Positions 10,101 to 64,000 of a DNA stretch of 64,000 nucleotides are shown here, piece by piece. The DNA comes from Papaver somniferum (taxonomy: Eukaryota; Streptophyta; Magnoliopsida; Ranunculales; Papaveraceae), in NCBI RefSeq assembly GCF_003573695.1, contig NC_039359.1, positions 117,497,849 through 117,561,848 on the forward strand, written 5' to 3'. The translations under genes and the position numbers were made by a program. Positions within the stretch are counted from its first letter, which is position 1; each line of letters opens with the position of its first letter. The notes below the pieces were generated by a model. That model did not search any database and had not been told where the DNA came from. It worked only from the letters and a program-made list of their open reading frames with translations.

Positions 10101-10225
10101 TTGCATTTGCTTACATTCCTTCCTCTAAACATCTAGCTGACATTCTGACTAAGGGTCTCAATTATCCTATCTTCTCTGCTCTACGTGACAATGTGATGCA
10201 CTTTTTTACACCTGCATCAGCTTGA
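7197..10225 (+). pseudogene. Copia pol pseudogene (protease, integrase, RT, RNase H)
   Basis: Protease is at 7270-7400 (WLSDSAVTSHLT; the canonical DSGA has become DSAV). The GAG-pre-integrase HHCC region runs about 7660-7800, and the integrase core is shortened and frameshifted (7800-8200). The integrase C-terminal half is in an open frame at 8209-8601 (TFLINKTPS, YGCACFPFL, CTFIGC). RT starts at about 8890 (GCKWVYKVK, RLAAKGYHQ, LDVSNAF-HG), shifts frame at about 9230, and then loses the YVDD catalytic block by deletion near 9325-9335. It resumes as LGELHYFFGMKV (9350) and runs to a TAG at 9770-9772 at the conserved SDxDW position. RNase H ends at 10225 (DNDGARALA, KHIEVDYHFVRD, ADILTKGL). 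Missing catalytic residues mean it cannot mobilise itself. Confidence 0.9.
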
Positions 10226-30648: not shown

Positions 30649-31925
30649 TTTTTTTTTAATAGGAAAGATAAATTTTATTGAAGAATTAAATCATAACATC
30701 CAACTCTTCTCTCACAAGAGTTTTAAACCAACTGGGAAAAGAATTAAACATACTTGAGTTTGTTCTAGTTGTTCTGGCTTTTTTGGCCAGACAATTAGCA
30801 ACCTCATTTGACTCTCTATGCACATATGTGCATTTCCAAGACTGAAAATTCCTTAGAAGTGTTTTACAATCATGGATAATATTATTATTTGTCCATTTAA
30901 CATAGTCATTGGCCCCATTAATAGCTTTAACCACATTTGAGCTATCTCCTTCCAAGTGCAGGCATTGTACATTTGCTTCTTGCGCCATTTTTATTCCTTC
31001 CAATGCAGCAAGAGATTTCGCCTGCTCCTCATCTTGGCATATCCCAGCTGCTGCAACTGCACCTCCATATGATCTTGTTGCAGAAAACATAGTCAGACCA
31101 TTACCCATATGCTTAGTTTCCTTGACATAAGAACCATCAAAATTAATTTTAACAAACCCTTCTTCTGGCAGTTGCCAATGTGATCTATCTCTACCTGTCA
31201 TTGTATTAGGAGAGACAGTTCTAAGGTTCTGAGAATTACTTACCCAGTCAGAGATATCTCTATTGATGAGACTCACAGTATTCACAATATTAACACTTGC
31301 ATTATCAAAAACCACAAGACATCTAAGTTTCCAAATGTGCCATAAAGTAAAACTGACAAATCTGATGCATGTAGAGATTGTTGAACTTCCATTGTTATTA
31401 CTATCTAACCATCCAGTGAGCAATTCATTAATCTGTTTACCATTAAGTAGGCCTGCATAATTAGGATCAACAGCTATCCACAGATTTCTAGAAACAGGAC
31501 AATCAAATAACAAATGATTAACAATTTTAGCACAAGAATCACACAAAGGACAAGTATTAGTTCCATTGGAAGCATCCCTAGCTAGTTTGCTCCTAACAGC
31601 CATACAATTTTGGACACATTTCCTCAGAAAATGCTTGATTTTCTGTGGAATATCCATTCTCCAAAAAAAATTCCATGGAAAAAAAACAGTCTCATGACTA
31701 TAAAGATCATCCATAATGGCCTTATAGGCAGTTTTTACACTAAAAAGACCATTATAAGATGGTTTCCATCTTAAAATGTTTTTACCCTCATCTGGAATTC
31801 TTATGTAACAGATATCCTTGATAGTGGCATCATCAAATAACATCTTTAACATATCTTCGTTCCATTTACCTTCATCCTACAAGATAAGCTGATCAACAGT
31901 TTTCATATTTGTAGAAGAAAGGGAA
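30649..31925 (-). mobile_element. 5'-truncated LINE (minus strand)
   Basis: The 3' end is a short poly(T) on the plus strand (30649-30657), i.e. a poly(A) tail on the minus strand. The body is the C-terminal part of ORF2, and the left part of the ORF is absent, the usual 5' truncation of target-primed reverse transcription. The target duplication was not resolved. It splits a C/T-rich stretch. Confidence 0.85.
30686..31852 (-). CDS. LINE ORF2 C-terminus: zf-RVT and RNase H domains
   Basis: An uninterrupted frame of 388 codons. Residues about 35-130 give the zinc-binding region that follows LINE reverse transcriptase (SVKTAYKAIM, IPQKIKHFLRKCV, CPLCDSCAKIVNHLLFDCP). Residues about 230-365 are an RNase H fold of the plant RVT_3 type (VKINFDGSY, SLAALEGIKMA, LEGDSSNVVKAI, HRESNEVANCLAKKAR). 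Three acidic positions (D in FDGS, E in ALEG, D in EGDS) are seen; the fourth, usually D in VAD.LA, is N here (VANCLA), which may weaken activity. The ATG at 31852 is simply the first in the truncated frame, not a native start. The open frame implies a fairly recent insertion. Confidence 0.85.
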   Translation of the reverse strand: MLKMLFDDATIKDICYIRIPDEGKNILRWKPSYNGLFSVKTAYKAIMDDLYSHETVFFPWNFFWRMDIPQKIKHFLRKCVQNCMAVRSKLARDASNGTNTCPLCDSCAKIVNHLLFDCPVSRNLWIAVDPNYAGLLNGKQINELLTGWLDSNNNGSSTISTCIRFVSFTLWHIWKLRCLVVFDNASVNIVNTVSLINRDISDWVSNSQNLRTVSPNTMTGRDRSHWQLPEEGFVKINFDGSYVKETKHMGNGLTMFSATRSYGGAVAAAGICQDEEQAKSLAALEGIKMAQEANVQCLHLEGDSSNVVKAINGANDYVKWTNNNIIHDCKTLLRNFQSWKCTYVHRESNEVANCLAKKARTTRTNSSMFNSFPSWFKTLVREELDVMI

Positions 31926-40853: not shown

Positions 40854-43619
40854 ATGAAGTACATGAAAATTGGAACAAGACCAGACACTTTCTTTGCTGA
40901 AGAAGACACCAGGTACTAAGCATTTTTAGTAGAAAAAATAAAGAGGAGGTATTCATAAGTTGATTGTATTCATGGTTCTTGCGCAGGTCGGTGTTGTTTG
41001 ATTTACCAGTGGATCTCGTTATACAAATTAACAACACTAAATTTCTCCTTCATAAGGTAACGTATGCAGTACATGCTTCATTAGCCTTTAAAATCAACAG
41101 GTCACAGTTTAATTTTCTTTTCTATCTGAAGGATTTGAATTCGTCTGTTTCCCACCTAGAAGGTAGCATAAAATGAAATCGAAGATGGCATAAAAATGAA
41201 ATCTCAATTACAAGTAGGACTTACTTAAGAATCGGATGATATAGAGAATTTTCTGGCGAAATTTCAATTTCAGACAGTACTGGAGTTTTTAGGAACTTTA
41301 AGACCCAAGTAGGAAGTTCATGTAAAGAATGTCTAAAGAATCTAAAACAGAATGTCAATGATGATAAGAGTGACTGCCAGAATTTTAACCCAAATACAAC
41401 AGAAAAAAACAAAACAAAATCGAACTGCCACTGTTAAAATGAGGATGCTCGACAGCTTTCCAATAGACCTCAAAGAAATACTACCATGGCAGTTAGGATC
41501 TTACTGGTATTGTGCTGTTGAAACCATATAAACTAGTTATACAAATCCCAAAATCAGAATTCTGGGGTAAACCTAAGTTTCACCAGTTATCTATGATCGT
41601 TTCAAAGTTTTTATCTTCTAAGTTACCTCTGAATCACTTGCATCCATTTTTTGACACTCATTTTACTGCAGATTCAGTTACTACCAAAATGTGGTATCCT
41701 GCGGCAAATTTGTTCAGGTTCTGACGATTCTAACGAAACTGAAGTTGAGCTCCACGATATTCCTGGTGGTGAAGAAGCTTTCGAGCTCTGTGCAAAATTC
41801 TGCTACGGAGTTACTATCAATCTCAGTGCCCATAATCTTGTACCAGCGCTTTGTGCTGCAAAGTTCCTGAGGATGACAGAGTCAATCTGCAAAGCAAATT
41901 TCGCAGCAAAACTTGAAGCTTTCTTCTATTCATGCATTCTTGAAGGCTGGAAAGACTCCATTGTAACGTTACAAACCACTACAGAAGTACCAGACTGGTC
42001 AGAAAATTTAGGGATTACTCGACGGTGCATTGATTCAATTGTTGAGAAAATTCTCATACATACATCGAAGGTCAGTAAGCACTTTGTATTTCATAGTGAC
42101 GTTTCATTACCCCATTCAGTTTTTCTTGAAATTTCAAAGTTGTTTTTGTAGGTTACATGGTCTTTTAAGTACACTAGACCAGGTTATGCTGATAAACATC
42201 ACCACACAGTTCCGAGAGATTGGTGGACAGAGGACATATCTGACCTAGACATTGATCTTTTTCGATGCATAATTACGGCCATTCAATCAATAAATATACT
42301 CCCTTCAACACTTATAGGTGAAGCATTACATGTATATGCCTATAAATGGCTACCTAAAATTTCTTCAAAGAGTAGCATTTCAGAAAGTTCAGTATCTCAA
42401 ACAGAAGAAATGATTCAGAAACAACGTAAAGTTCTTGATTCAATTGTGAGCATGATTCCAACAGAACGTGGGTCGGTTTCAGTTGGGTTCTTGCTGAAGT
42501 TACTTAGACTGGCAAGTTTAGTTGGGGCACATCATTCGACAAAAGCAGAACTTATTAGAAAATCAAGTAGGCAACTCGAAGACGCTACAGTTGATGATTT
42601 ACTGATTCCACCTCACTCATCATTGGATCAGCATTTTTACGATATAAACTTGGTTGGGGTGCTATTGGAAAGTTTTTTGGCTCAATGGCGGAGACAGGGT
42701 TCACAGGTAGAAAGTGAATCTTTCATTTCCATAAGGAGAGTGGGAAAACTGATTGATTCTTACCTCCAAGTGGTTGCTAGGGATGGCAACATGCCAGTTT
42801 CAAAGATTCTCTCACTTGCCGAGTCTTTACCGGAAATTGCCCGTTTGGACCATGATGAATTATACAAAGCTATCAACATTTATCTAAAGGTAATGAGGTT
42901 CCTCTTAATAATTTAAGTTGTTTGAAACCTAGGGTCAATTTATCCTGTTAGTCAATACATCTAACATAACACAAACTTAAATCAGTACGACTCCAATACA
43001 ATAATTAGCAGGATAAGAATAATTCTACTGGCAGTATGCCTAAATCATATTTAAATTGTTAGAAATATGATGCTGTTCTAATAATCAATTTCTCTGTTAA
43101 CACCAGGAGCATACAGATATAAGCAAAGAAGATAAGAAACGACTCTGTAGAATTCTTGACTGTCAGAAATTGTCCCCGAAAGTGTGTGCTCATGTAGTAA
43201 AAAACGAACGTCTACCCTTAAGAACAGTAGTACAAGTCTTATTCTTTGATCAAGAGAGAAACCCAAAAGTAACAAGTAGGAAACCACAACCTACTGAGAC
43301 AATACTTGAAAATTTTGAACAACCAAAATTGATCCAAACTGAGTATAACAATAAGCCAGAAAAAGTTGCAGATAAACAAAATGGCCAAAGGACGTCAGAG
43401 GGAGAAGCAACTACATCAACAACTGAGATGAGAAGTCATCATCAGATTATGAGAAGGAAACATGACATTGGAGTTTTGCCAGGGTCAGAAATTACGAAGG
43501 CAATGAGGGAGATGGCAATTACTGAAGGAGCGTCTGTAAGTAAATTGGAGTCTAAGAAGGAAACAGTAAGGAGAAGCAAATCAGGAAATCACGGACCCAG
43601 TAAATCGGGAACTAAATAG
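40854..43619 (+). CDS. NPH3/RPT2-like (NRL) BTB/POZ protein, five exons
   Basis: The exons 40854-40912, 40987-41056, 41672-42070, 42152-42889 and 43107-43619 all have GT/AG borders and join without frame error to 592 codons. The start [14 protein letters not shown] matches one NRL subgroup. Residues about 26-110 are the BTB domain ([38 protein letters not shown]). Residues about 200-471 are the NPH3 domain ([79 protein letters not shown]). The C-terminal 120 residues are basic and disordered; RRSKS near residue 579 could be a phospho-site like those binding 14-3-3 in NPH3. Family members are plasma-membrane-associated adaptors of CUL3 ligases acting with phototropins or in auxin transport. 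Which paralog this is I cannot say. Length is normal and the gene looks intact. Confidence 0.93.
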
Positions 43620-44327: not shown

Positions 44328-44786
44328 CTACCAAAGGCATGAAGTAGTCTCATCTGGAGGCATCAGCGGGGTTCTGCACAGAGGACAAGTGATGTTCCAG
44401 TAATCTAACCATTTCTCCAAACAGACCTTGTGATAAACATGACCGCAAGACAAGCGGTTTATTTCTGATTCGGGTTCAAACTGGTTAAGGCATACCAAGC
44501 AATCATGGTCATACTGTCTAGACTTACAAACTGAACCGAATTGAACTGTTGGAGTCCGGCTCCTGAATTCTTCCACAAATGTGCCTGATGGTGTAAGACA
44601 GAAATCAAATGGTTCTGATGGATTTTCAATGGAATCGAACTGCGACGACGATGATGATGTATTAATACCAACTATGTGAAGGATTGATCGAATAATGCCT
44701 TTGAAAATTGAGATTGATAGAGCTGTGTTAACAAGGATTACACAAAGTACTCCTTCTGATGGAGCTGGAAGGCTTGAAAGACCCAT
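44328..44786 (-). CDS. XERICO-like RING-H2 E3 ubiquitin ligase
   Basis: A single-exon coding region of 152 codons. The N-terminus MGLSSLPAPSEGVLCVILVN is the family signature, and residues 12-41 form a hydrophobic membrane segment. A Ser-rich linker (43-48) follows, then EEFRSRTPTVQF, then a RING-H2 finger with C96, C99, C114, H116, H119, C122, C134 and C137, all eight zinc ligands present, in DCLVCL...CGHVYHKVC...CPLC. It ends TSCLW. In Arabidopsis, XERICO is an ER-associated RING-H2 protein that raises abscisic acid level and drought tolerance; close relatives are short membrane-anchored E3s. Length and motifs match the family, so it is probably functional. A leader intron lies upstream (44857-45217). 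Orthology versus paralogy needs a tree. Confidence 0.93.
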   Translation of the reverse strand: MGLSSLPAPSEGVLCVILVNTALSISIFKGIIRSILHIVGINTSSSSSQFDSIENPSEPFDFCLTPSGTFVEEFRSRTPTVQFGSVCKSRQYDHDCLVCLNQFEPESEINRLSCGHVYHKVCLEKWLDYWNITCPLCRTPLMPPDETTSCLW

Positions 44787-44856
44787 CTTTAATGATATAT
44801 GATTTTAGAATTGGAGAGATTTCTGAAATGAAAGGAGTGATTCTTTCTTCTAATAT

Positions 44857-47603: not shown

Positions 47604-48333
47604 TAGGGCTGCACAAAACCGACTCAACCCACACCCGCCTGAAATTACCTACATCCGACCCAACCCACCTAGGAGTGGGTCGACTATGTGTGACAACATT
47701 AAAACCCATAATATGGCGGGTCGACTGTGGGTGACGGCTTCCCTCACCCGACCCAACCCACCCACCCACCTAAATATTTGTAAGTTAATTCTAACCCTTA
47801 GATTACCTATCTTAGATTAACCACAACCGTTGAAGTAATGATATATGATTTTAGGCTTTAGTATAGTAGGAAATGGTAATGTACTCTTTTATCTTTTGAA
47901 CCTTGAACAGTTGAACTCATTTCTTGTTATTGTTAGCTTTATCACTTTGCATGCAGTTTCCAACTTTGTACCAACTTCTTACTTCTCTGGATTTTTATTT
48001 TGTAAACACTTTTAAGTAACTTCTTATGATGTTAATTGTGTCAGCTTTTTGATAAAAGCTATTACTTCCAATCTGTAAGAATCTTAGTTATTTGTATACA
48101 AGTAAGTTTAACAGTAAGACTGTAAGTCTGTAACTGTAATGTAATGTTTATTGTATTTTATGGTGGGTAATCCACCATCCATCCAATCCAACTCACCGTA
48201 ATATGGATCGGGTGAAAACCGATCCATTGTAATGTTGGGTTGGTTGCGCGTGACAACTTCTGTTACCCACCATCAGTGGGTTGGGTGGTGGGTGAGACCA
48301 AACCCGACCCAATCCAACCCATGTGCAGCCCTA
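47604..48333. mobile_element. Non-autonomous hAT element, 730 bp
   Basis: The ends TAGGGCTGCACA and (reversed) TAGGGCTGCACATGGG are terminal inverted repeats. ATCCAATC flanks both sides exactly (47596-47603 and 48334-48341), the 8-bp duplication of hAT. Both subterminal zones are built of ACCCGACCCAACCCAC-type repeats in opposite orientation, about 150 bp on each side, with an AT-rich centre. No transposase is present. Similar TAGGGCTGCAC elements are common in plant genomes. Confidence 0.93.
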
Positions 48334-48341
48334 ATCCAATC

Positions 48342-49900
48342 TTTTTATCTGTACCAGTAACCGATTACTTTCTTTAATCTAATCTTTTTATGGAAGAGAA
48401 TGCGATACAAATCTACTGCACCACTAACCAATTTCTTAAATCTAATCTAAACTTTTTGGTAGGCATCTCTGATCTCTCGTTTTAGGCTCTATCTTCAGCT
48501 TCCTCCTCATTGTGTGGATTGGTTCATGAACTAGAACTAGGCAGCACTCCTCTACTTTTGTGGGGCCCGACAAAAATTGTTGAACATACGTGTCATAAAG
48601 TGAGGTGGTATTAAAATAGGGACGTCATAACCCAACTTTCACTAGAACCAGGTGGCGACCAAGAAGAGACGTTTCAAATCTTTGCCATTTTCACGAAATC
48701 AAGCTTATGCAACACATGTACAAAGCCTCGTCTTTGTCAAATCACTCTAGAAGTGCCCCCTCCATTCTTGGAACCCTATCTGGATGATAATACAGTGTGG
48801 ATTTATTTTACTTTCTCCCGAAAGCTCTCGTACATGACAGATGGTCAGAAATTGGAGGAGCACCTAGGCGATTCAGAGGTCAGATTTCAATCAATTATGT
48901 GGTAGGCTGTCGTCTAAATTTGGAGCTGGCATTTGAGGGCCACCTTTTAAATTAGGGGAGCATTATTCACATTCTATCATCTTTTAGATCGATTTTATTT
49001 AAAGTGTCATGTTAATTTGTATACCCGTATACAGGTTAAGATTTATTTAAAAAAATTGAGAGATATATTTTAAATTTCAGTAGGATATTTTTGAGAAGCG
49101 TAAAAATGAACTAGTAAGTTCTTGAAACGCGAAAAAATTTAGATTAACATCGTTAGCATGTTAGTTCACGTAATTAAAGACTAAAAAATCTAACTCGGAA
49201 GGAATAAACTTAGTTCTTTGAACCAAACGGGAAAAATCAGCTTTGTCTAGTCATAATTCTTAATTTCTAGAAATCGATTCCCTCTAAAATAATAGATTTT
49301 AGTTACATTGGTCCAATAACGTAATAGAGTTGGATTCCGAAATAAAAGCAAAATATTAAAGTTTTGGATTTAAATTCAATTCCTTGCATTCAAATCCGAA
49401 CTTTGGATTACACCATAAATAAAGTTCTAGGATTTGAATCCTTCCAACCACACGAGGTGTTTATGTAATATTATATGTGAGCAGAAAGCTAAATTCCCTG
49501 GACCTTATATGAAAACCTTTGAGAGTAATTTCCATGGTTCCTAAGATTAAAATACTTTCCTACTTTCTTTTCCAAGTTGAGGACCAAGTAACAGTCCAAG
49601 TTAGGGTCATAACAAAGTAAAAAGATGTGACCTTTACATGTCCAAATTTTGGTATTTTCATAATAGTTTTTACTGTCTTTTTAAGTAAATATTACCTTAC
49701 AACGTTAATGGAAGATTTCAGCAAAGTTGAGAATGTTACCTTCCATCCTTGCATTTTGTTAGCTACTTTTCCACGATACTTGAATAAGTATTGACCTCAA
49801 TTCTGCCCATTGATTGGACAACCTAAAACACCACGAATTTTAGTACTGAATTTTCAATTTCATATCCTTTTTAAATATGTTTATCAATGTTTTTTCTTGA
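48342..49900. other. Intergenic; no gene recognised
   Basis: AT-rich sequence without a supported frame or clear terminal repeats. Confidence 0.35.
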
Positions 49901-51573
49901 CGGAAATGTTAATAATTATTATTAAAGAACACGTCTTGCTTATATAATGCTAGACTTACGAACTCGTTGTTGCAATGCATTGACATATATTGAAGAAACT
50001 TGATCCTTGCTTCCTTTGTCGTGGAGTCCACCGTTGTACTATGACTTCTGATATCCAACCTGAGCTTGAGGGTTTGTAGTACGTAGCTTCTGTAATTGTA
50101 TTATTTTGCACACCATGGAATGTCTGCACTATTTTTGCAGGTTATATCCGGTAGTAATTTGCAATCTGTCGCTATGAAGACACTTGATAATATGTTCTCA
50201 TTTAACTAGTCACTTGCTTTCAACAGAATTTTTGCTTCTGCACGAACGACCAAGAAGCCCGATTCTTAACCCACTGAAAGCATAAAAGCTTCTCGATCTA
50301 CTGATTAAAGGATGAAAATATATCCCATATATAAATCTTATTTATTAGACGATGCATCAATAAATATTATCTAATTGAGTTTAGGGAATACCGTGAAGGC
50401 TTAATTACTTTTTCTTTACGAATATGAGGAACCGTAAGCATGTTCTAGTAGGAGGAGAATGCATATATTTGTTAATCTGGTATATCAGGTTTGTTGGATC
50501 TAGACTAATTTTTTCAAAATTACTGAGCATGTATGTTTCTAAATGAACCAAAGGATGATAGCCATTTTCCTCCAAAAATCACGAGTATTCAAAGTCGAAT
50601 ATTCATTTTTTTTACCCATGTACTTATCTCATCTATGCAAATCTAGGAGTTAAATGAGTCTATCGAACAACCAACCAAATAGCTTTAGCAAAAGGACAGA
50701 ACTTGAAAAAGATGTTGCTCAGTCTCTCGAGCATGGGAATTGCAGATGAGACATTCTAGGGAGACAGTCGAAAATGATTTGCTAGTTGTTGGAGGTAAGG
50801 AGAGCTTTCTGCGTGAATTTCCAAATGACTTTAATTTTTCATATTTTTTTCAAGGAAAATAAATATTACGATTGTTCCTGGCATCTTGATTAATTATAAA
50901 ACTACAGATATTGTTTGCAGAGAAAGCTCCTAAAGGATGATGCTTCCATATAATTCTATCTGGATCCTTACTTTGAGGCAATATGGCAAGTATATTTCTT
51001 TTTTATTATGGTGTGAAAAATTAATTTAACTTCGAAATATCCCAAGTCCTTCAGAATTTATCAGTCCTTGTACCCTTTGCGGTAATAGTTTTTCTTTATC
51101 CAAAGGTTTGGGAATTATATCTGAGTAAGGTATCCACTTGTCCTCAATTTTTTTTGAAGTAGCTCCATTTTTCACTTACCAATCAATATTATCTTTGATT
51201 AGGTTTAATACTTTTTGTATACTTGTCTGAATCCAAGAAAGGTTAGAAGACCTAGTTGATTCCAGAGGATGAGAATTTAGAAAGTATTTTGCTTTAAGCA
51301 ATTGAGCCCATAACTGATCTTGTTCCGAGATTAATCGACTGGCTAGTTCTATTTGAAGAGCTATGTTAAATTGGTGGGGATGTTTAGTTCTTAGCCCTCA
51401 TCATGATCTAGGCTTGAAAATATCGACCCAAACTTCTATATAACCACTTTCGCCTTTTGATCCATTTTTATTCCACCAGAAATATCTTTGAGTATGATCC
51501 GAATGATCTAGTGTTTCTTTATGAAGGGAAAGAATATGCATTTGATATGTTGGGTATGCTTGAAGGATAAATT
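49900..51573 (-). pseudogene. Old LINE ORF2, downstream half (minus strand)
   Basis: On the minus strand, from 51573 downward: FWWNKNGSKGESGYI and a broken DIFKPRS; IALQIELASRLISEQDQLWA and QLLKAKYFLNSHPLE (51240-51380); a zf-RVT region with CNSHARETEQHLFFKFCPFA (50680-50770); and an RNase H core (VVRAEAKILLKAS, FIATDCKLL) at about 50140-50260. This is the order of a plant L1-type ORF2. Stops and frameshifts are frequent. It continues upstream on the far side of the LTR array, at 60785-61916. Confidence 0.8.
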
Positions 51574-51579
51574 GGATTA

Positions 51580-53744
51580 TGTAACACCCCGATTTTCGTG
51601 CGTGGATCCCATGTCCGAAAACCCGAAGTGCTACTTCGATACCATAGACGAAGCCTGGCTACTAAGCCCAAGCTCATTAAATAATTTATCCGGGCTTAGT
51701 TAAATTATGTTCAGTTTCGAAATTCTTTCGCAGCGGATACATAAAAATTCTTTTCGGAACATCTAACCGTTAATTTGACGTGATTCTTAATTTACATGAA
51801 CCCTAAAGAAATATACTTTATCAGAAAAATAAATTTCACCGTTAAAAGTTCCAGATAAAATCCAAAATAATTACGTTTTTAAGAAAGATTCATAAAACAG
51901 AAACTGACGCCAGGTCACTCAAATAATTTTACCGAGTCCAATACGAATCCATAAATTATTATGATTATATATTCTGAATCCTAACTTATCGCCTTTCCAG
52001 TAATAAAATTTCTAGGATTTTTAGTTTATCTTAAATACCTTTTGACCATAGTCAAACGAGTAGTTGACCAATACTGTAGAAACGCACAACAGTGATGATT
52101 CGTTTTAGAAAAAACATATCAATTCACTCACAACTTCAAATTTTCTTTGGTCGATCATTATGAAAAGATAAAAGAACCATCTTTGAGTTTTCAGTAGACT
52201 CTAAAGGCTAAAACATGATATAGAATATTTTAAAAAAAATAGACAACTTCAGTAAAATTGAATCTGACAGAAAACGTCTGATCCTTGTACAGTGAAAACA
52301 ATTGATTTAAAAATACTTCTGGAACTCAGAAAATTATGAAATTTTTATATGTACATATTGAGAGATTTTTACATGTAACATAAAAAAATGAGACAAAAAC
52401 GTATTATATAATAATTATGATAGACAGTCAAACTGACATGATCCAGAAATTTCCATTATTCAATCAAATAGAGTAGTCTAAACAAAGCATTGTTTTCTTT
52501 GATTATACATTAACCCAATAATCTTTAAAGCTTTAATAACCAATAAATAACTAATTAAATCATCTAAAAGAGTTGATGATATTTTATTACAATCCCAATC
52601 ATAAATCCTATGCAAACTACTAATAATAGCACCAAAACCGATCTCTACGCTTCTCCGCCATTAACTCCTTGTGGTGCCATAAAATCTGGAATTTTTTTGT
52701 CATTAAACGACGTGAGTTGTGACACCCAGTAGGAAAAGAAGCAACAAAACATTTTATCAAACGTTTTCAATTCTTTTTAAAACAACTAGCATGGTTAATA
52801 GCATCACAATACATGGAAACACCACATCCATAAGAACAATCAAATCAATCACATCAAATCCGCTCGCCCCAGGGAGCCCCACGTGGGTTTAGGGAACAAA
52901 ACCGTTCCCAAGGATATCTCGTATCCCATCATAATTGTTTTTAAGAATCACAATCTATGGACCGCAGCCCAACATACATAATCATACTCCAACATCGATT
53001 ATCATTCATATATGAATCAAAACTTACAAAATAAAATTAATTAAAAGAAACTTAAATAAAAAGAAGGTTTTTGATTGTGTTGCGCCTACCTCAAACGCTA
53101 GCGATAGGAATACGAAATCTCCAATCCATCCAGTGATAAAGAATCCCTTAACTATTCTAAAATTTATGCCAAAAGAAATCTTAAAACCTACTGTATTTTT
53201 TTTTCTCTTTTACAGGAACCTAAACACCAAACCGAAGAAATTATCCCTTCCTTGACCGACTAATGCAACTTTGATATTTATATTAAAATTGATTAAAACC
53301 CTAAATAACTATCAGCTAATAATGCCTTGACACTTGGCACTAGAGGCGAAAAATTGGTCGAAGTTTCCTTAGTCAACCAAGCCACAGTTTACACGAAATG
53401 CAAACGATTTACACCAAAGGATTCTATGCACCCCTATCAATTGATGACACGTGCAAGTACTAAACATGAATTCAAATTTCGTTTGTTCTTTCCACTAATC
53501 ATGTGAGTCTAACAGTAAGAATTTACATTCCAGCTAAATAAGAATTTTGTTAATTTAAAAACACTATAAACTTAATAACCAATACTAAAGCGACAAGTGT
53601 CAATTTTGATTTAACAAGTAAGATATAAATTTGACATGTCACGTGAACCATAATTTAAAAAACCAAAATACCCTCTTAAGTAAATACAAAAATACCCTTT
53701 TAGTAAAAGACAAAAATACCCTTGAAATTGGGATGGATATTACA
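51580..53744 (-). repeat. Array LTR 1 (2165 bp)
   Basis: It starts on the plus strand at TGTAACACCCCG, joined to LINE sequence through GGATTA. Its first 1.2 kb matches LTRs 3 and 4 at diagnostic sites (CCGAGTCC, CTGTAGAAACGC, CAGTGATG), while the last 0.9 kb matches LTR 2 (CATCCATAAG, CCTTGACC, AACTATCAG). The switch lies between about 52770 and 52830. Confidence 0.93.
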
Positions 53745-53920
53745 ACCTCACACACTTCAAGAAATTTAGTCCCTAAATTTAAAGTAACGCGACAAAAAAA
53801 AAATGCAAGCTAAAAAGAAAAACACAGAACCAAATTTATCGAAACACAATTAACATTTACTATTATTGTTTTCGCAACAACTAGCTCCGAAAGGATCTAA
53901 TTGCTGCTCTGATACCAAAC
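53745..53920 (-). other. Internal domain 1 with primer-binding site
   Basis: 176 bp, non-coding. The minus-strand TGGTATCAGAGC primer site is at 53906-53917, three bases from the LTR end. The other end, at 53745, carries the presumed polypurine tract. An A-rich middle is present. Confidence 0.9.
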
Positions 53921-56076
53921 TGTAACACCCCGATTTTCGTGCGTGGATCCCATGTCCGAAAACCCGAAGTGCTACTTCGATACCATAGACGAAGCCTGGC
54001 TACTAAGCCCAAGCTCATTAAATAATTTATCCGGGCTTAGTTAAATTATGTTCAGTTTCGAAATTCTTTCGCAGCGGATACATAAAAATTCTTTTCGGAA
54101 CATCTAACCGTTAATTTGACGTGATTCTTAATTTACATGAACCCTAAAGAAATACTTTATCAAAAATAAATTTCACCGTTAAAAGTTCCAGATAAATCCA
54201 AAATAATTACGTTTTTAAGAAAGATTCATAAAACAGAAACTGACGCCAGGTCACTCAAATAATTTTACTGAGTCCAATACGAATCCATAAATTATTATAA
54301 TTATATATTCTGAATCCAAACTTATCGCCTTTCCAGTAATAAAATTTCTAGGATTTTTAGTTTATCTTAAATACCTTTTGACCATAGTCAAACGAGTAGT
54401 TGACCATACTGCAGAAACACAACAGTGACGATTCGTTTTAGAAAAACATATCAATTCACTCACAACTTCAAATTTTCTTTGGTCGATCATTATGAAAAGA
54501 TAAAAGAACCATCTTTGAGTTTTCAGTAGACTCTAAAGGCTAAAACATGACATAGAATTTTAAAAAAATAGACAACTTCAGTAAAATTGAATCTGACAGA
54601 AAACGTCTGATCCTTGTACAGTGAAAACAATTGATTTAAAAATACTTCTGGAACTCAGAAAATTATGAAATTTTTATATGTACATATTGAGAGATTTTTA
54701 CATGTAACATAAAAAATGAGACAAAAACGTATTATATAATAATTATGATAGACAGTCAAACTGACATGATCCAGAAATTTCCATTATTCAATCAAATAGA
54801 GTAGTCTAAACAAAGCATTGTTTTCTTTGGTTATACATTAACCCAATAATCTTTAAAGCTTTAATACCAATAAATAACTAATTAAATCATCTAAAAGAGT
54901 TGATGATATTTTATTACAATCCCAATCATAAATCCTATGCAAACTACTAATAATAGCACCAAAACCGATCTCTACGCTTTTCCGCCATTAACTCCTTGTG
55001 GTGCCATAAAATCTGGAATTTTTTGTCATTAAACGACGTGAGTTGTGACACCCAGTAGGAAAAGAAGCAACAAAACATTTTATCAAACATTTTCAATTCT
55101 TTTTAAAACAACTAGCATGGTTAATATCATCACAATACATGGAAACACCACATCCATAAGAACAATCAAATCAATCACATCAAATCCGCTCGCCCCAGGG
55201 AGCCCCACGTGGGTTTAGGGAACAAAACCGTTCCCAAGGATATCTCGTATCCCATCATAATTGTTTTTAAGAATCACAATCTATGGACCGCAGCCCAACA
55301 TACATAATCATACTCCAACATCGATTATCATTCATATATGAATCAAAACTTACAAAATAAAATTAATTAAAAGAAACTTAAATAAAAAGAAGGTTTTTGA
55401 TTGTGTTGCGCCTACCTCAAACGCTAGCGATAGGAATACGAAATCTCCAATCCATCCAGTGATAAAGAATCCCTTAACTATTCTAAAAGATTTATGCCAA
55501 AAGAAATCTTAAAACCTACTGTATTTTTTTTTCTCTTTTACAGGAACCTAAACACCAAACCGAAGAAATTATCCCTTCCTTGACCGACTAATGCAACTTT
55601 GATATTTATATTAAAATTGATTAAAACCCTAAATAACTATCAGCTAATAATGCCTTGACACTTGGCACTAGAGGCGAAAATTGGTCGAAGTTTCCTTAGT
55701 CAACCAAGCCACAGTTTACACGAAATGCAAACAAGATTTACACCAAAGGATTCTATGCACCCCTATCAATTGATGACACGTGGCAAGTACTAAACATGAA
55801 TTCAAATTTCGTTTGTTCTTTCCACTAATCATGTGAGTCTAAACAGTAAAATTTACATTCCAGCTAAATAAGAATTTTGTTAATTTAAAAAAACCTATAA
55901 ACTAATAACCAATACTAAAGCGACAAGTGTCAATTTTAGATTTAACAAGTAAGATATAAATTTGACATGTCACTGAACCATAATTTAAAAAAAAACCAAA
56001 TACCCTCTTAAGTAAAATACAAAAATACCCTTTTAGTAAAAGACAAAAAACCCTTGAAATTGGGATGGATATTACA
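53921..56076 (-). repeat. Array LTR 2 (2156 bp)
   Basis: It is the most diverged copy in its first half (ACTGAGTCC, CTGCAGAAAC, CAGTGACG, GGTTATACAT, CTTTTCCGCC). It also has several single-base losses in homopolymers relative to the other copies, which may be real or may reflect consensus errors in near-identical repeats. Confidence 0.93.
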
Positions 56077-56250
56077 ACCTCACACACTTCAAGAAATTTA
56101 GTCCCTAAATTTAAAGTAACGCGACAAAAAAAAAATGCAAGCTAAAAAAGAAAAAACAGACCAAATTTATCGAAACACGATTAACATTTACTATTATTGT
56201 TTCGCAACAACTAGCTCCGAAAGGATCTAATTGCTGCTCTGATACCAAAC
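56077..56250 (-). other. Internal domain 2 with primer-binding site
   Basis: 174 bp, near-identical to internal domains 1 and 3, with the same primer site at 56236-56247. Confidence 0.9.
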
Positions 56251-58420
56251 TGTAACACCCCGATTTTCGTGCGTGGATCCCATGTCCGAAACCCGAAGTG
56301 CTACTTCGATACCATAGACGAAGCCTGGCTACTAAGCCCAAGCTCATTAAATAATTTATCCGGGCTTAGTTAAATTATGTTCAGTTTCGAAATTCTTTGC
56401 AGCGGATACATAAAAATTCTTTTCGGAACATCTAACCGTTAATTTGACGTGATTCTTAATTTACATGAACCCTAAAGAAATATACTTTATCAGAAAATAA
56501 ATTTCACCGTTAAAAGTTCCAGATAAATCCAAAATAATTACGTTTTTAAGAAGATTCATAAAACAGAAACTGACGCCAGGTCACTCAAATAATTTTACCG
56601 AGTCCAATACGAATCCATAAATTATATGATTATATATTCTGAATCCTAACTTATCGCCTTTCCAGTAATAAAATTTCTAGGATTTTTAGTTTATCTTAAA
56701 TACCTTTTGACCATAGTCAAACGAGTAGTTGACCAATACTGTAGAAACGCACAACAGTGATGATTCGTTTTAGAAAAAACATATCAATTCACTCACAACT
56801 TCAAATTTTCTTTGGTCGATCATTATGAAAAGATAAAAGAACCATCTTTGAGTTTTCAGTAGACTCTAAAGGCTAAAACATGATATAGAATATTTTAAAA
56901 AAAATAGACAACTTCAGTAAAATTGAATCTGACAGAAAACGTCTGATCCTTGTACAGTGAAAACAATTGATTTAAAAATACTTCTGGAACTCAGAAAATT
57001 ATGAAATTTTTATATGTACATATTGAGAGATTTTTACATGTAACATAAAAAAATGAGACAAAAACGTATTATATAATAATTATGATAGACAGTCAAACTG
57101 ACATGATCCAGAAATTTCCATTATTCAATCAAATAGAGTAGTCTAAACAAAGCATTGTTTTCTTTGATTACATTAACCCAATAATCTTTAAAGCTTTAAT
57201 ACCAATAAATAACTAATTAAATCATCTAAAGAGTTGATGATATTTTATTACAATCCCAATCATAAATCCTATGCAAACTACTAATAATAGCACCAAAACC
57301 GATCTCTACGCTTCTCGCCATTAACTCCTTGTGGTGCCATAAAATCTGGAATTTTTTTGTCATTAAACGACGTGAGTTGTGACACCCAGTAGGAAAAGAA
57401 GCAACAAAACATTTTATCAAACGTTTTCAATTCTTTTTAAAACAACTAGCATGGTTAATATCATCACAATTACATGGAAACACCACATACATAAGAACAA
57501 TCAAATCAATCACATCAAATCCGCTCGCCCCAGGGAGCCCCACGTGGGTTTAGGGAACAAAACCGTTCCCAAGGATATCTCGTATCCCATCATAATTGTT
57601 TTTAAGAATCACAATCTATGGACCGCAGCCCAACATACATAATCATACTCCCAACATCGATTATCATTCATATATGAATCAAAACTTACAAAATAAAATT
57701 AATTAAAAGAAACTTAAATAAAAAGAAGGTTTTTGATTGTGTTGCGCCTACCTCAAACGCTAGCGATAGGAATACGAAATCTCCAATCCATCCAGTGATA
57801 AAGAATCCCTTAACTATTCTAAAATATTTATGCCAAAAGAAATCTTAAAACCTACTGTATTTTTTTTTTCTCTTTTACAGGAACCTAAACACCAAACCGA
57901 AGAAATTATCCCTTCCGTGACCGACTAATGCAACTTTGATATTTATATTAAAATTGATTAAAACCCTAAATAATTATCAGCTAATAATGCCTTGACACTT
58001 GGCACTAGAGGCGAATAAATTGGTCGAAGTTTCCTTAGTCAACCAAGCCACAGTTTACACGAAATGCAAACACGATTTACACCAAAGGATTCTATGCACC
58101 CCTATCAATTGATGACACGTGACAAGTACTAAACATGAATTCAAATTTCGTTTGTTCTTTCCACTAATCATGTGAGTCTAACAGTAAGAATTTACATTCC
58201 AGCTAAATAAGAATTTTGTTAATTTAAAAAAACACTATAAACTTAATAACCAATACTAAAGCGACAAGTGTCAATTTTAGATTTAACAAGTAAGATATAA
58301 ATTTGACATGTCACGTGAACCATAATTTAAAAAAAAACCAAAATACCCTCTTAAGTAAAATACAAAAATACCCTTTTAGTAAAAGACAAAAATACCCTTG
58401 AAATTGGGATGGATATTACA
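56251..58420 (-). repeat. Array LTR 3 (2170 bp)
   Basis: Its second half is almost identical to LTR 4, sharing ACAATTACATGG, CATACATAAG, CCGTGACC, AATTATCAG and GCGAATAAATTGG. It has private single-base losses (CCGAAACCCG, TTTGCAGCGG, TTCTCGCC). Confidence 0.93.
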
Positions 58421-58597
58421 ACCTCACACACTTCAAGAAATTTAGTCCCTAAATTTAAAGTAACGCGACAAAAAAAAAAATGCAAGCTAAAAAGAAAAAC
58501 ACAGAACCAAATTTATCGAAACACGATTAACATTTACTATTATTGTTTTCGCAACAACTAGCTCCGAAAGGATCTAATTGCTGCTCTGATACCAAAC
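58421..58597 (-). other. Internal domain 3 with primer-binding site
   Basis: 177 bp, same structure as the others. The primer site TGGTATCAGAGC is on the minus strand at 58583-58594. Confidence 0.9.
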
Positions 58598-60778
58598 TGT
58601 AACACCCCGATTTTCGTGCGTGGATCCCATGTCCGAAAACCCGAAGTGCTACTTCGATACCATAGACGAAGCCTGGCTACTAAGCCCAAGCTCATTAAAT
58701 AATTTATCCGGGCTTAGTTAAATTATGTTCAGTTTCGAAATTCTTTCGCAGCGGATACATAAAAATTCTTTTCGGAACATCTAACCGTTAATTTGATGTG
58801 ATTCTTAATTTACATGAACCCTAAAGAAATATACTTTATCAGAAAAATAAATTTCACCGTTAAAAGTTCCAGATAAAATCCAAAATAATTACGTTTTTAA
58901 GAAAGATTCATAAAACAGAAACTGACGCCAGGTCACTCAAATAATTTTACCGAGTCCAATACGAATCCATAAATTATTATGATTATATATTCTGAATCCT
59001 AACTTATCGCCTTTCCAGTAATAAAATTTCTAGGATTTTTAGTTTATCTTAAATACCTTTTGACCATAGTCAAACGAGTAGTTGACCAATACTGTAGAAA
59101 CGCACAACAGTGATGATTCGTTTTAGAAAAAACATATCAATTCACTCACAACTTCAAATTTTCTTTGGTCGATCATTATGAAAAGATAAAAGAACCATCT
59201 TTGAGTTTTCAGTAGACTCTAAAGGCTAAAACATGATATAGAATATTTTAAAAAAAATAGACAACTTCAGTAAAATTGAATCTGACAGAAAACGTCTGAT
59301 CCTTGTACAGTGAAAACAATTGATTTAAAAATACTTCTGGAACTCAGAAAATTATGAAATTTTTATATGTACATATTGAGAGATTTTTACATGTAACATA
59401 AAAAAATGAGACAAAAACGTATTATATAATAATTATGATAGACAGTCAAACTGACATGATCCAGAAATTTCCATTATTCAATCAAATAGAGTAGTCTAAA
59501 CAAAGCATTGTTTTCTTTGATTATACATTAACCCAATAATCTTTAAAGCTTTAATAACCAATAAATAACTAATTAAATCATCTAAAAGAGTTGATGATAT
59601 TTTATTACAATCCCAATCATAAATCCTATGCAAACTACTAATAATAGCACCAAAACCGATCTCTACGCTTCTCCGCCATTAACTCCTTGTGGTGCCATAA
59701 AATCTGGAATTTTTTTGTCATTAAACGACGTGAGTTGTGACACCCAGTAGGAAAAGAAGCAACAAAACATTTTATCAAACGTTTTCAATTCTTTTTAAAA
59801 CAACTAGCATGGTTAATATCATCACAATTACATGGAAACACCACATACATAAGAACAATCAAATCAATCACATCAAATCCGCTCGCCCCAGGGAGCCCCA
59901 CGTGGGTTTAGGGAACAAAACCGTTCCCAAGGATATCTCGTATCCCATCATAATTGTTTTTAAGAATCACAATCTATGGACCGCAGCCCAACATACATAA
60001 TCATACTCCCAACATCGATTATCATTCATATATGAATCAAAACTTACAAAATAAAATTAATTAAAAGAAACTTAAATAAAAAGAAGGTTTTTGATTGTGT
60101 TGCGCCTACCTCAAACGCTAGCGATAGGAATACGAAATCTCCAATCCATCCAGTGATAAAGAATCCCTTAACTATTCTAAAATATTTATGCCAAAAGAAA
60201 TCTTAAAACCTACTGTATTTTTTTTTTCTCTTTTACAGGAACCTAAACACCAAACCGAAGAAATTATCCCTTCCGTGACCGACTAATGCAACCTTGATAT
60301 TTATATTAAAATTGATTAAAACCCTAAATAATTATCAGCTAATAATGCCTTGACACTTGGCACTAGAGGCGAATAAATTGGTCGAAGTTTCCTTAGTCAA
60401 CCAAGCCACAGTTTACACGAAATGCAAACACGATTTACACCAAAGGATTCTATGCACCCCTATCAATTGATGACACGTGACAAGTACTAAACATGAATTC
60501 AAATTTCGTTTGTTCTTTCCACTAATCATGTGAGTCTAACAGTAAGAATTTACATTCCAGCTAAATAAGAATTTTGTTAATTTAAAAAAACACTATAAAC
60601 TTAATAACCAATACTAAAGCGACAAGTGTCAATTTTAGATTTAACAAGTAAGATATAAATTTGACATGTCACGTGAACCATAATTTAAAAAAAAACCAAA
60701 ATACCCTCTTAAGTAAAATACAAAAATACCCTTTTAGTAAAAGACAAAAATACCCTTGAAATTGGGATGGATATTACA
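58598..60778 (-). repeat. Array LTR 4 (2181 bp)
   Basis: It ends GGATGGATATTACA, directly followed by the right GGATTA. It is nearly identical to LTR 1 in the first half and to LTR 3 in the second half, with private changes GATGTGATT (about 58794) and GCAACCTTG (about 60290). Confidence 0.93.
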
Positions 60779-60784
60779 GGATTA

Positions 60785-61916
60785 TCACTGTTTGACCTGC
60801 TTGAGAGAGAAGATTTCATTTCCAACCTTGTAGAGTTGTATAATATTTTGTTAACAAATGACTCAAAATTTTCCTTTATATTTTTATCAAAGAAGAGCGG
60901 AATGCCGAGATATTTATCTTTTTTTGTCATCAAGGGAACTGTAAGAACTTTTACTATGATTTTTCCATGTTTTGGACGAATCTTAGGGCTAAAGTAAGTT
61001 CCCTTTTTTTAGAGATTAACCATTATCTCATGTTCTCCTAAAAATAGATAAAATATCCATTACAATTTTTGCTTCTCCCAGATCCGCTCTTGTGAAAAGG
61101 AAACAATCATCATCAAAAAATATGTGAGATATATTTGGGGCGTGTTTATTGATTTCTAGCCCCGATATTTTTTTCAACAATAGTATTTTTTTAGGATAGT
61201 GAAAGTATCTTTATGCAGGTAAAAAACAGGATCGCCCTGTGGAATTCCCTTTGAATTAGGGAACATTGGACCTGGGAAACTATTTAGGAGAATGGAGAAA
61301 GAGGTAGTAGATATGCACCAGTAGAATAAGATTTGCCTGTTATTGCTGAAACCAAAAGAAATTAGGACCTTTTTAATAAAAGGTCATTCAACCAGATCAA
61401 CGGTTTTTGAAAGATTAAGTTTTAAAGTAAGTATCCCTTTTTTATTTTTGATATTTTCATAGAATGGAGGAGCTCATGAGCAATGATAATGTTATCAGTA
61501 ACTTTCCTTCCCTATATGAATGTCGATTGGTTGGGGAAAATTATTCTCTTAAATATAAGTTTTAACCTATTGAGAAGGATTTTGGAGATAAGCTTATAAA
61601 TTTTGTTGCTTAAACTAATGAGTCACAAATCATCAGGGGTTATGGGGCAATGATTTTTGGGATGAGAGTTAGGTAGTACTAATTGAATTCCGGATTCAGA
61701 ATCCATGTTTTGAAGAATTCTTGGATATATAATACAATATTGTGTCCTAGGATTTCCAAATTGGCTTTAAAAAACCCATTTGGGATCCATTTGGTCCAGT
61801 CGCACCCCGAGAATCCATGTTTGAGATAGTAGACAAGATTTCTTCCTTGGATGGGATTTCAATGAGAGTAAAATTTTCCATATCCGATATGCATGATTCC
61901 AGAGAGATCAATGTCG
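60785..61916 (-). pseudogene. Old LINE ORF2, upstream half (minus strand)
   Basis: Minus-strand reading includes a GIPQGDPVFYL-like segment (about 61225-61250), corresponding to the RQGDPLSP block of LINE reverse transcriptase, and KDKYLGIPLFFDKNIKENFE (60840-60915), the KYLG(I/V)PLFFGR block that follows RT. It stops at the array boundary within LSSRSNSDN and rejoins the 51573 side in the same frame. The catalytic YADD/FADD region is expected near 61080-61130, and an FDDDCFLFT-like reading is visible there. Decayed. Confidence 0.78.
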
Positions 61917-62453
61917 TAGTTACTAATTCAGACTGGAATATAATTAATCCCTAACCAATCTCACATTGATTAATGTACAGTCGCGTTCCTTACGCCTCTG
62001 AATCCCAGCAGGACTTTATGCACTTGATTCCGTTAGCTGATCTCACGCACAACTAAGAGTTGCTACGACCCGAAGTCGAAGAATTGATAAACAAATCTGT
62101 CTCACACAGAAAAGTCTATTAGAATAGATAAATTTGTCTCCCATAGAAATACCTACGAAGTTTTTGTTCCGTATTTTGATAAATTAAGGTGAACAGGAAC
62201 CAATTGATATACCGGACTTATATTCCCGAAGAACAACCTAGAAATATCAATCACCTCACAATAACTTAACTATATGGTAGTAGAAAAAGTTAATGTAAAA
62301 TCACAAATAATGAGACGAAGAGCTTTGTGATTACTTTTTATATCTTACCTATCAAAGATAATTCTCAAGCAAATCTTAGAGAAGAATAAGATAGAACAAA
62401 GTAAGATCATAACATGCAACTACAAAGAGAATAGTTTGGTCTGGCTTCAGAAT
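61917..62453 (-). repeat. Sirevirus-like LTR fragment (copy F), minus strand
   Basis: The reverse complement aligns with the middle-to-3' part of the LTR at 12966-14926: AGCCAGACC, GTAATCACAAA-C-CTTCGTC, TGTTCTTCGGGAATATAAG, GTGAGACAGATTTGTTTAT, CCTGCTGGGAT-CAGAGGCG. It abuts LINE sequence at 61917 and is cut at 62453 by the next LTR. Confidence 0.8.
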
Positions 62454-64000
62454 TGAAAAGCGGGGGTCTAACAACCACAATCAATATTTCGTTCGGCAAT
62501 CTGAATAGACAAACTCCAATATACTTTCAAGAGAATCAACTAGACAGTCAGACTCAATCTATAAAAAAGTATATCAAAGAGTTTATATCTCAATTATTCA
62601 ATTCAATCTGCAATCAGCAAATAGGAATTTGCGATCCCGATTGAATAAGAGAAATAATTTGGACGGTATCACAAACCAATATCCAAGTGTCAATTAATTC
62701 AGTCAACAACCTAAAGGTCGGATTCAAGAACTGATTAAACTTAACGCACAACCTGTGATATTTCTATTATATAACAAAATATAATGCGGAAAAGAAATAA
62801 CACAGACACCAGAATTTTGTTAACGAGGAAAACCGCAAATGCAGAAAAACCCCGGGACCTAGTCCAGGTTTGAACACCACACTGTATTAAGCCGCTACAA
62901 ACACTAGCCTACTAACAATGAACTTCGGACTGGAATGTGGTTGAGCCCTAATCAATCTCACACTGATCAGGGTACAGTTGCGCACCTTACGTCTCTGAAC
63001 CCTAGTAGGATACGCACTTGATTCCCTTAGCTGATCTCACCCAAAACCAAGAGTTTCTACGACCCAAAGTCGAAGACTTGATAAACAAATCTGTCTCACA
63101 CAGAAAAGTCTATTGGAATAGATAAATCTGTCTCCCACAGAAATACCTACGAGTTTTGTTCCGTCCTTTGATAAATCAAGGTGCACGGGAACCAATTGAT
63201 AAACTAGACTTATATTCCCGAAGAACAACCTAGTATAACCTCACAATAATCTTAATTGTATGGAAGCGAAACAAAATATTTTGGAATCACAAATGATGAG
63301 AAGAAGATGTTTGTGACTACTTTTTATCTTGCCTATCGGAGATTAAATCTCGAGCAAATCTTAGAGAAGATAGTACTCAATCACGATATAAAACAACAAG
63401 ATCAGAACACGCAACTACAGAGAAAATAGTTGGTTTCAAGTCGTTAACCTACAGGGTTTCGTGAAAAACCTAAGGTTAAAGGAGAACCGACTCTAGTCAC
63501 AACTAGTATCACAGATGAGGTGTGGGGATTAGGTTTCCCAGTTGCTAGAGTTCTCCCTTATATAGTTTTCAAATCAGGGTTTGCAATCTAAGTTACCTTG
63601 GTAACAAAGCATTCAATATCCACCGTTGGATGAAAACCTGATTAGATTCAAGCTAATATCTTTTAACCGTTAGATCGAACTTAGCTTGTTATACACAAAC
63701 GAAATGTACCTTCATTTAGGTTTGAGTAACCGTACCTAAACGTGTACACTAGGTTGGCTCAACAGTAGTTAACTGAAGTTAGCTGTATGAACAATATCAT
63801 ATAGACCTTATTCATCTTAACCACAACTAGTTCAAATGACTCAAATGAAACTAGTTATAGAGTTTCTCAATTGCTATATTCTCATAGAAGTATACAAGAA
63901 GAAAATTGAAGCAAAATCGGTTTGATTCACCCGAATCAATTCATGAACATTATAACCATGGTTTGCAAAGAATGCATTCCTTAATATATAAATGTATTAG
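62454..64000 (-). repeat. Sirevirus-like LTR (copy E), minus strand, runs off the window
   Basis: It begins on the plus strand with TGAAAAGCGGGGGTC, the reverse complement of the LTR 3' terminus of this family. It continues through CCCCGGGACCTAGTCCAG, AAGCCGCTAC, the LTR TATA region (about 63555) and AACCGTTAGATCGAACTTAG, with no end before 64000. It interrupts copy F, so it is younger. The rest of the element or its other end lies outside the window. Confidence 0.88.

Follow-up and report, generated by a model that had tools for sequence, protein, structure and literature searches.

How does an LTR retrotransposon come to display four LTRs and three internal domains within a single target-site duplication? 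The question is raised by a 64,000-nucleotide stretch of the Papaver somniferum genome (hereafter the window), in which a minus-strand element occupies positions 51574-60784. Between two copies of GGATTA (51574-51579 and 60779-60784) are found, from left to right, LTR 1 (51580-53744, 2165 bp; the 3' LTR in element orientation), internal domain 1 (53745-53920, 176 bp), LTR 2 (53921-56076, 2156 bp), internal domain 2 (56077-56250, 174 bp), LTR 3 (56251-58420, 2170 bp), internal domain 3 (58421-58597, 177 bp) and LTR 4 (58598-60778, 2181 bp; the 5' LTR in element orientation), all on the minus strand. Each LTR has the form TGTAACACCCCG...GGATATTACA, with TG...CA ends and in direct orientation. 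A sequence-only reading of this DNA had described a four-LTR array inside one target-site duplication, and the description was borne out: the LTRs measure 2156-2181 bp, the internal domains 174-177 bp, and GGATTA directly abuts the outer edges of LTR 1 and LTR 4. The flanks of the individual LTRs match over at most 2 bp; nested or side-by-side insertions are ruled out, as no individual LTR is flanked by its own duplication.

On the minus strand, internal domain 1 begins with GTTTGGTATCAGAGC right after an LTR ending in TGTTACA, and its primer-binding site, TGGTATCAGAGC at 53906-53917 of the minus strand, is what we take to be the usual plant initiator-tRNA primer site. The 12-base site recurs at the equivalent place in internal domains 2 and 3. 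Where a polypurine tract would be expected, before the 3' LTR, only GAAGTGTGTGAGGT is visible. No open frame of at least 120 codons occurs in 48000-64000, and the element is non-coding. With direct TG...CA LTRs, a primer-binding site adjoining the 5' LTR and a target-site duplication, it is an LTR retrotransposon; with alternating LTR/internal units, an LTR at both ends and one duplication, it is a tandem one.

The array interrupts a minus-strand LINE, whose upstream part was translated over 60785-62284 and whose downstream part over 50080-51579. When the array and one GGATTA are removed, the translated halves rejoin without a stop at the junction, in agreement with the in-frame continuity claimed in the sequence-only reading; the frame named there (SNSDN into YPSSIPN) was wrong, the LINE-like frame being minus frame 2. 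At the join this frame reads LLSQAGQTV/IIQFILQAYPTYQM, which in our judgment resembles a conserved stretch of LINE reverse transcriptases, and in the right flank it gives a weak RVT_1 match (E = 5.9e-5, under Pfam's curated cut-off). Pfam searches with six LINE pieces returned one LINE-like match and one chance-level match to Fic_N; with the junction piece itself no family was matched. The interrupted LINE is broken by many stops, and no uninterrupted relative across the junction was found in the window and the fetched loci. The empty site is reconstructed from the LINE frame together with the target-site duplication, and a single insertion into the LINE, with one duplication, is supported.

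Other features of the window include two host genes, one for an NPH3-family protein (42152-42913) and one for a RING-H2 protein like XERICO (44328-44801), the latter 98% identical over 44328-44789 to a protein cluster named for Papaver bracteatum. A further minus-strand LINE remnant (30686-31876) carries zf-RVT and RVT_3 domains within a single 396-codon open frame, and there are two Copia-like reverse transcriptase fragments, at 1574-2884 (RVT_2 found in 1574-2422) and at 8743-10225 (recognized by eye).

The LTR with its internal domain was searched for in the whole genome, a check that the sequence-only reading had proposed. The 30-base LTR/internal junction, with up to 3 mismatches allowed, has at least 91 matches (0 for the reversed control), which fall into 67 loci, 52 of them single and 15 with two or more junctions within 3.2 kb. 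One of the latter (C3:141.8), with two junctions 553 bp apart, was discounted as an array, so that tandem arrays, with up to six LTRs, account for 14 of the 67 loci. At five loci (C3:107.6, C32511, C1:26.08, C1:26.10 and C11:69.45) the tandem state was read from junction spacing, and C4:90.29 was too degraded for its boundaries to be read. Both ends were read in ten multi-LTR arrays: four with four LTRs (the window array, C7:110.46, C1:221.5 and C31294), one with six (C2007, 2646102-2660855), one with five (C10:113.3) and four with three (C11:79.22, C458, C5:10.65 and C10:89.58). C31294 and C10:89.58, whose internal domains are different, stand outside the 14. Nine of the ten arrays are enclosed as a whole by one perfect duplication, which measures 6 bp in the window and 5 bp in the other eight; for C5 there is none. 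A target-site duplication is also present around a two-LTR copy (C8:79.33) and around three of four stand-alone single LTRs examined, again of 5 bp. Because the other duplications in the family are 5 bp long, that of the window may be a 5-bp GATTA plus an adjacent chance G. In C2007 the last LTR ends in TATA. Many LTR copies share with the window LTR a core of about 1.4 kb (96-98% identity) beyond which their ends differ or are unmatched, as if subfamilies had arisen by recombination.

We regard it as probable that a non-autonomous element inserted once into the LINE and that the array grew afterwards by unequal crossing over within the LTR. According to this proposal a non-autonomous LTR retrotransposon, of Ty3/gypsy-like relation and with a tRNA-Met primer site, would have made a single insertion flanked by one target-site duplication; mispairing of its two LTRs, either on sister chromatids or on homologues, would have followed, and an unequal crossover inside the LTR would have added a whole LTR plus internal unit with the flanks untouched, leading eventually to four LTRs. 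In such an exchange A-int-B would become A-int-X-int-B, where X consists of the left part of B and the right part of A; old changes private to A would then have to fall on the left and those private to B on the right.

This mosaic signature is shown by three sister arrays. In C2007 the A-private changes lie at 58-764 and the B-private ones at 743-2318, while two mosaic types alternate along the middle LTRs, with twelve ABABAB sites at 629-1326; the same left/right polarity can be recognized in C10:113.3 and C1:221.5. In a position test whose direction was fixed by the crossover model, the p-values were 0.0004 for C2007, 0.00002 for C10:113.3 and 0.005 for C1:221.5, and when all ten arrays were pooled (including C31294, C10:89.58 and the C2007 end site) the observed order was reached by 1 in 100,000 shuffles. 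Seven of the ten arrays are individually non-significant, and with the three arrays named above left out the pooled figure is 9150 in 100,000; the window array gives no signal (1 versus 2 private sites, p = 0.67).

The internal domains were also compared with the LTRs. In seven arrays with short internal domains these domains carry 3 changes in all, whereas the divergence of the outer LTR pair would predict 17.5 if all units dated from the insertion (P = 2.7e-5); this count omits the window, C31294 and C10:89.58, and takes two of the three domains of C7, the third being cut to 17 bp. Internal domains are not frozen, because between loci they are 76-99% identical, a rough control. In C10:89.58, 8 of 957 positions distinguish the two internal domains and 25 of 1997 the outer LTRs; the middle LTR of this array has many small deletions and, save for one three-state site, no private substitution.

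Some of the patterns are more elaborate. In C2007 there are 0 substitutions among the five internal domains, and likewise between LTR 2 and LTR 4 and between LTR 3 and LTR 5; these LTR identities imply that a two-unit block was doubled, either in the plant itself or in the course of assembly. In C7 two sites unite LTR 1 with LTR 4 and set them apart from LTRs 2 and 3; LTRs 3-4 of C10:113.3 are without changes of either side. Both patterns are beyond one simple crossover, and C10:113.3 needs more than one step. Deletion-rich middle units are found in C2007, C10:113.3, C7, C1 and C10:89.58, and part of the mosaic pattern, including the doubled block of C2007, could be assembly noise; C458 and C5 have few small deletions, most of them in the last LTR.

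The sequence-only reading had left it undecided whether the insertion became a concatemer or arrived as one. The mosaics favour the former in three of the ten arrays, the window array not being among the three. Arrival as a concatemer, in which a multi-unit read-through or template-switched transcript was reverse-transcribed and integrated in one step, has been put forward in the sense that tandem transcripts are proposed for such arrays (PMC7215508, PMC11899658), and this origin, or a very early expansion, fits C11:79.22 and C31294. Both are star-like, with LTRs about equidistant (8, 12 and 14 private changes in C11:79.22); moreover, the internal domains of C31294 diverge by 41 of 4218 positions (domains 1-2), 28 of 4224 (1-3, in two pieces) and 24 of 4300 (2-3, in two pieces), on a par with its LTRs (21-29 of about 2490). 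A concatemer predicts, however, neither middle LTRs that carry last-LTR states on the left and first-LTR states on the right, nor an outer LTR pair that is older than the internal domains, and for the window array we consider this origin unlikely.

Growth by unequal crossing over can also be confronted with the window LTRs themselves. The insertion is young, for LTR 1 and LTR 4 are separated by 6 substitutions over 2165 positions; LTRs 3 and 4 differ by 2 in 2170, and LTR 3 has 0 private substitutions. LTR 2 differs from the others by 18-24 substitutions in about 2150 positions, six of which represent one shifted stretch (alignment columns 1943-1949). At column 1222 it agrees with LTRs 3-4 (the last-LTR state) and then, at 1231, 1250, 1411, 1621, 1678, 1735 and 1777, with LTR 1 (the first-LTR state); one last-LTR site on the left followed by first-LTR sites is the predicted order. 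Seven deletions of LTR 1 (columns 1585-2118) are absent from LTR 2 and are taken as later or spurious changes. LTR 2 also contains a divergent tract (columns 354-1184), in which ten substitutions separate it from LTRs 1 and 3 when columns 130-1190 are compared. Over these columns LTR 2 is closer than LTRs 1 and 4 to 38 of 38 other LTR copies, and closer than LTR 3 to 34 of the 38, with four ties; the tract derives from neither outer LTR. Over the same columns at most 11 sites distinguish the window LTRs from one another and 14 or more separate them from any of the 38 copies, and among the fetched copies there is no sign that the window array is a whole copy of another array moved to this place. 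LTR 2 can be described as a partial mosaic of the predicted kind to which a divergent tract is added, within a stretch rich in deletions.

Relative to LTR 4, 40 small deletions were counted between 52809 and 57315, and 36 of them fall in that stretch (53350-57330), which is likely a low-quality consensus; the ten in LTR 3 all lie before 57330, with none past 57315. It is conceivable, albeit somewhat less so than arrival as a concatemer, that positions from about 53350 to 57330 were patched with low-quality or paralogous long reads, the real number of LTRs at this allele being two or three. Small changes in internal domain 2 that are absent from the other 21 aligned internal domains point in that direction, and the proximity of LTR 2 to other copies over columns 130-1190 is as expected of a family-level consensus. 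On the other hand, the window has no N bases, the right-half states of LTR 2 are common to LTR 1 alone, and sister loci have the same architecture, in some cases (C11:79.22, C5) with few small deletions. A low-coverage or paralogous patch would account for both the tract and the deletions of LTR 2, whereas conversion or cDNA recombination would account for the tract only. At nine of the ten tract sites the state of LTR 2 recurs in one or more of seven other copies, and at five in all seven, as might be the case if the cDNA of another family member had later entered the resident element by recombination or had converted its sequence. PMC11899658 cites yeast cases of integration into elements already in place. 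No donor was found among the fetched copies, the closest of which differ at 14 of about 1045 sites, and the tract sits in the noisy stretch, so we give very little credence to this last explanation. The count of four LTRs is that of the assembly, and we infer it for the true allele; growth of the window array by unequal crossing over is likewise what we infer from its sisters.

A more speculative view, which we hold only tentatively, is that the combination of a 2.2-kb LTR with a 176-bp spacer causes these insertions to behave in a satellite-like manner, with about one fifth of the junction loci arrayed via repeated unequal crossing over, block doubling as in C2007 and ectopic conversion by other members of the family as in LTR 2. 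If this were true, one insertion could seed a growing tandem repeat, and the mosaics of its units could be used to date and order the steps.

Coding relatives place the element near the gypsy-like group. C31294 (390414-416458) is a four-LTR array of a gypsy-like coding element, 26 kb long, with one duplication, ACATA; one piece of it has integrase-type domains, the rve core being below cut-off. At C3:91.46 reverse transcriptase, RNase H and integrase-type domains occur in order, again with the rve core below cut-off. Columns 126-1523 of the window LTR are 96-97% identical to the LTR core of these two elements, and only 15 bases at the primer site match between the internal domain and those of its gypsy-like relatives. 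In C31294 the third internal domain exceeds the second by about 2.9 kb. The three-LTR array C10:89.58 (C10:89577360-89585300), in which the internal domains measure about 960 bp and the duplication is TTTGT, shows by eye a gag-like open frame. The window element is probably a non-coding passenger of the gypsy-like group, judging from these sequence relations; being non-coding, it does not have the reverse transcriptase followed by integrase that would make it a Ty3/gypsy element in its own right. The name LARD is used for elements with a long non-coding internal domain, and that of the window element is 176 bp. It resembles TRIMs in having no coding capacity and an internal domain within 100-300 bp (174-177 bp), but not in its LTRs of 2156-2181 bp, as the TRIM dimensions quoted in PMC4528315 are LTRs of 100-250 bp and elements below 540 bp. 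It fits neither class, its LTRs being too long for a TRIM and its internal domain too short for a LARD. Identity with Cassandra is ruled out, since the LTR has no 5S RNA (0 Rfam matches in 51000-61500). We know of no paper dedicated to the poppy LTR family of the window, from which nothing follows.

Chains of this type had been called rarely described, a statement that does not hold: tandem chains of three to twelve LTRs have been published (PMC4528315, PMC4717578, PMC7215508, PMC11899658). As described in PMC4528315, the 89 intact elements of maize Wukong include eight with three LTRs, five with four and two with six and seven; like the poppy element Wukong is non-autonomous and multi-LTR, with recombination proposed, whereas it is described as a TRIM and in a grass, and the poppy LTRs measure 2.2 kb. 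Arrayed TRIMs are reported from 35 of 43 plant genomes (PMC4717578) and Cassandra arrays with at least 12 LTRs (PMC7215508). According to these two papers both share with the window array the alternation of LTR and short internal domain and, for the maize examples, one duplication; they differ in their short LTRs and, for Cassandra, in the 5S RNA of the LTR. In the account of PMC11899658, tandem LTR retrotransposons are known from rice, Arabidopsis, almond and cotton, with gypsy elements enriched in rice and Arabidopsis and 266 potential cases in a rice pangenome. They share with the poppy arrays LTRs common to adjoining units and 5-bp duplications; the search in that paper required internal regions of at least 500 bp and the 28 inspected rice arrays were all coding, unlike the 176-bp non-coding domain of the window element. 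A coding four-LTR relative does exist at C31294. The mechanism of formation is left open there between recombination and complex insertion, both of which seem possible (PMC11899658). In the poppy family, slightly diverged outer LTRs allow the two routes to be distinguished from one assembly: the marks of crossing over are middle LTRs with last-LTR states on the left and first-LTR states on the right, together with internal domains of more recent origin than the outer LTRs. These marks are seen in three arrays, the window array being a weaker example, and the copy numbers of arrays in patched assemblies need checking. Compared with the known systems, the chains themselves are a familiar structure, and the useful part of the poppy arrays is the mosaic evidence that they bring to an undecided mechanism.
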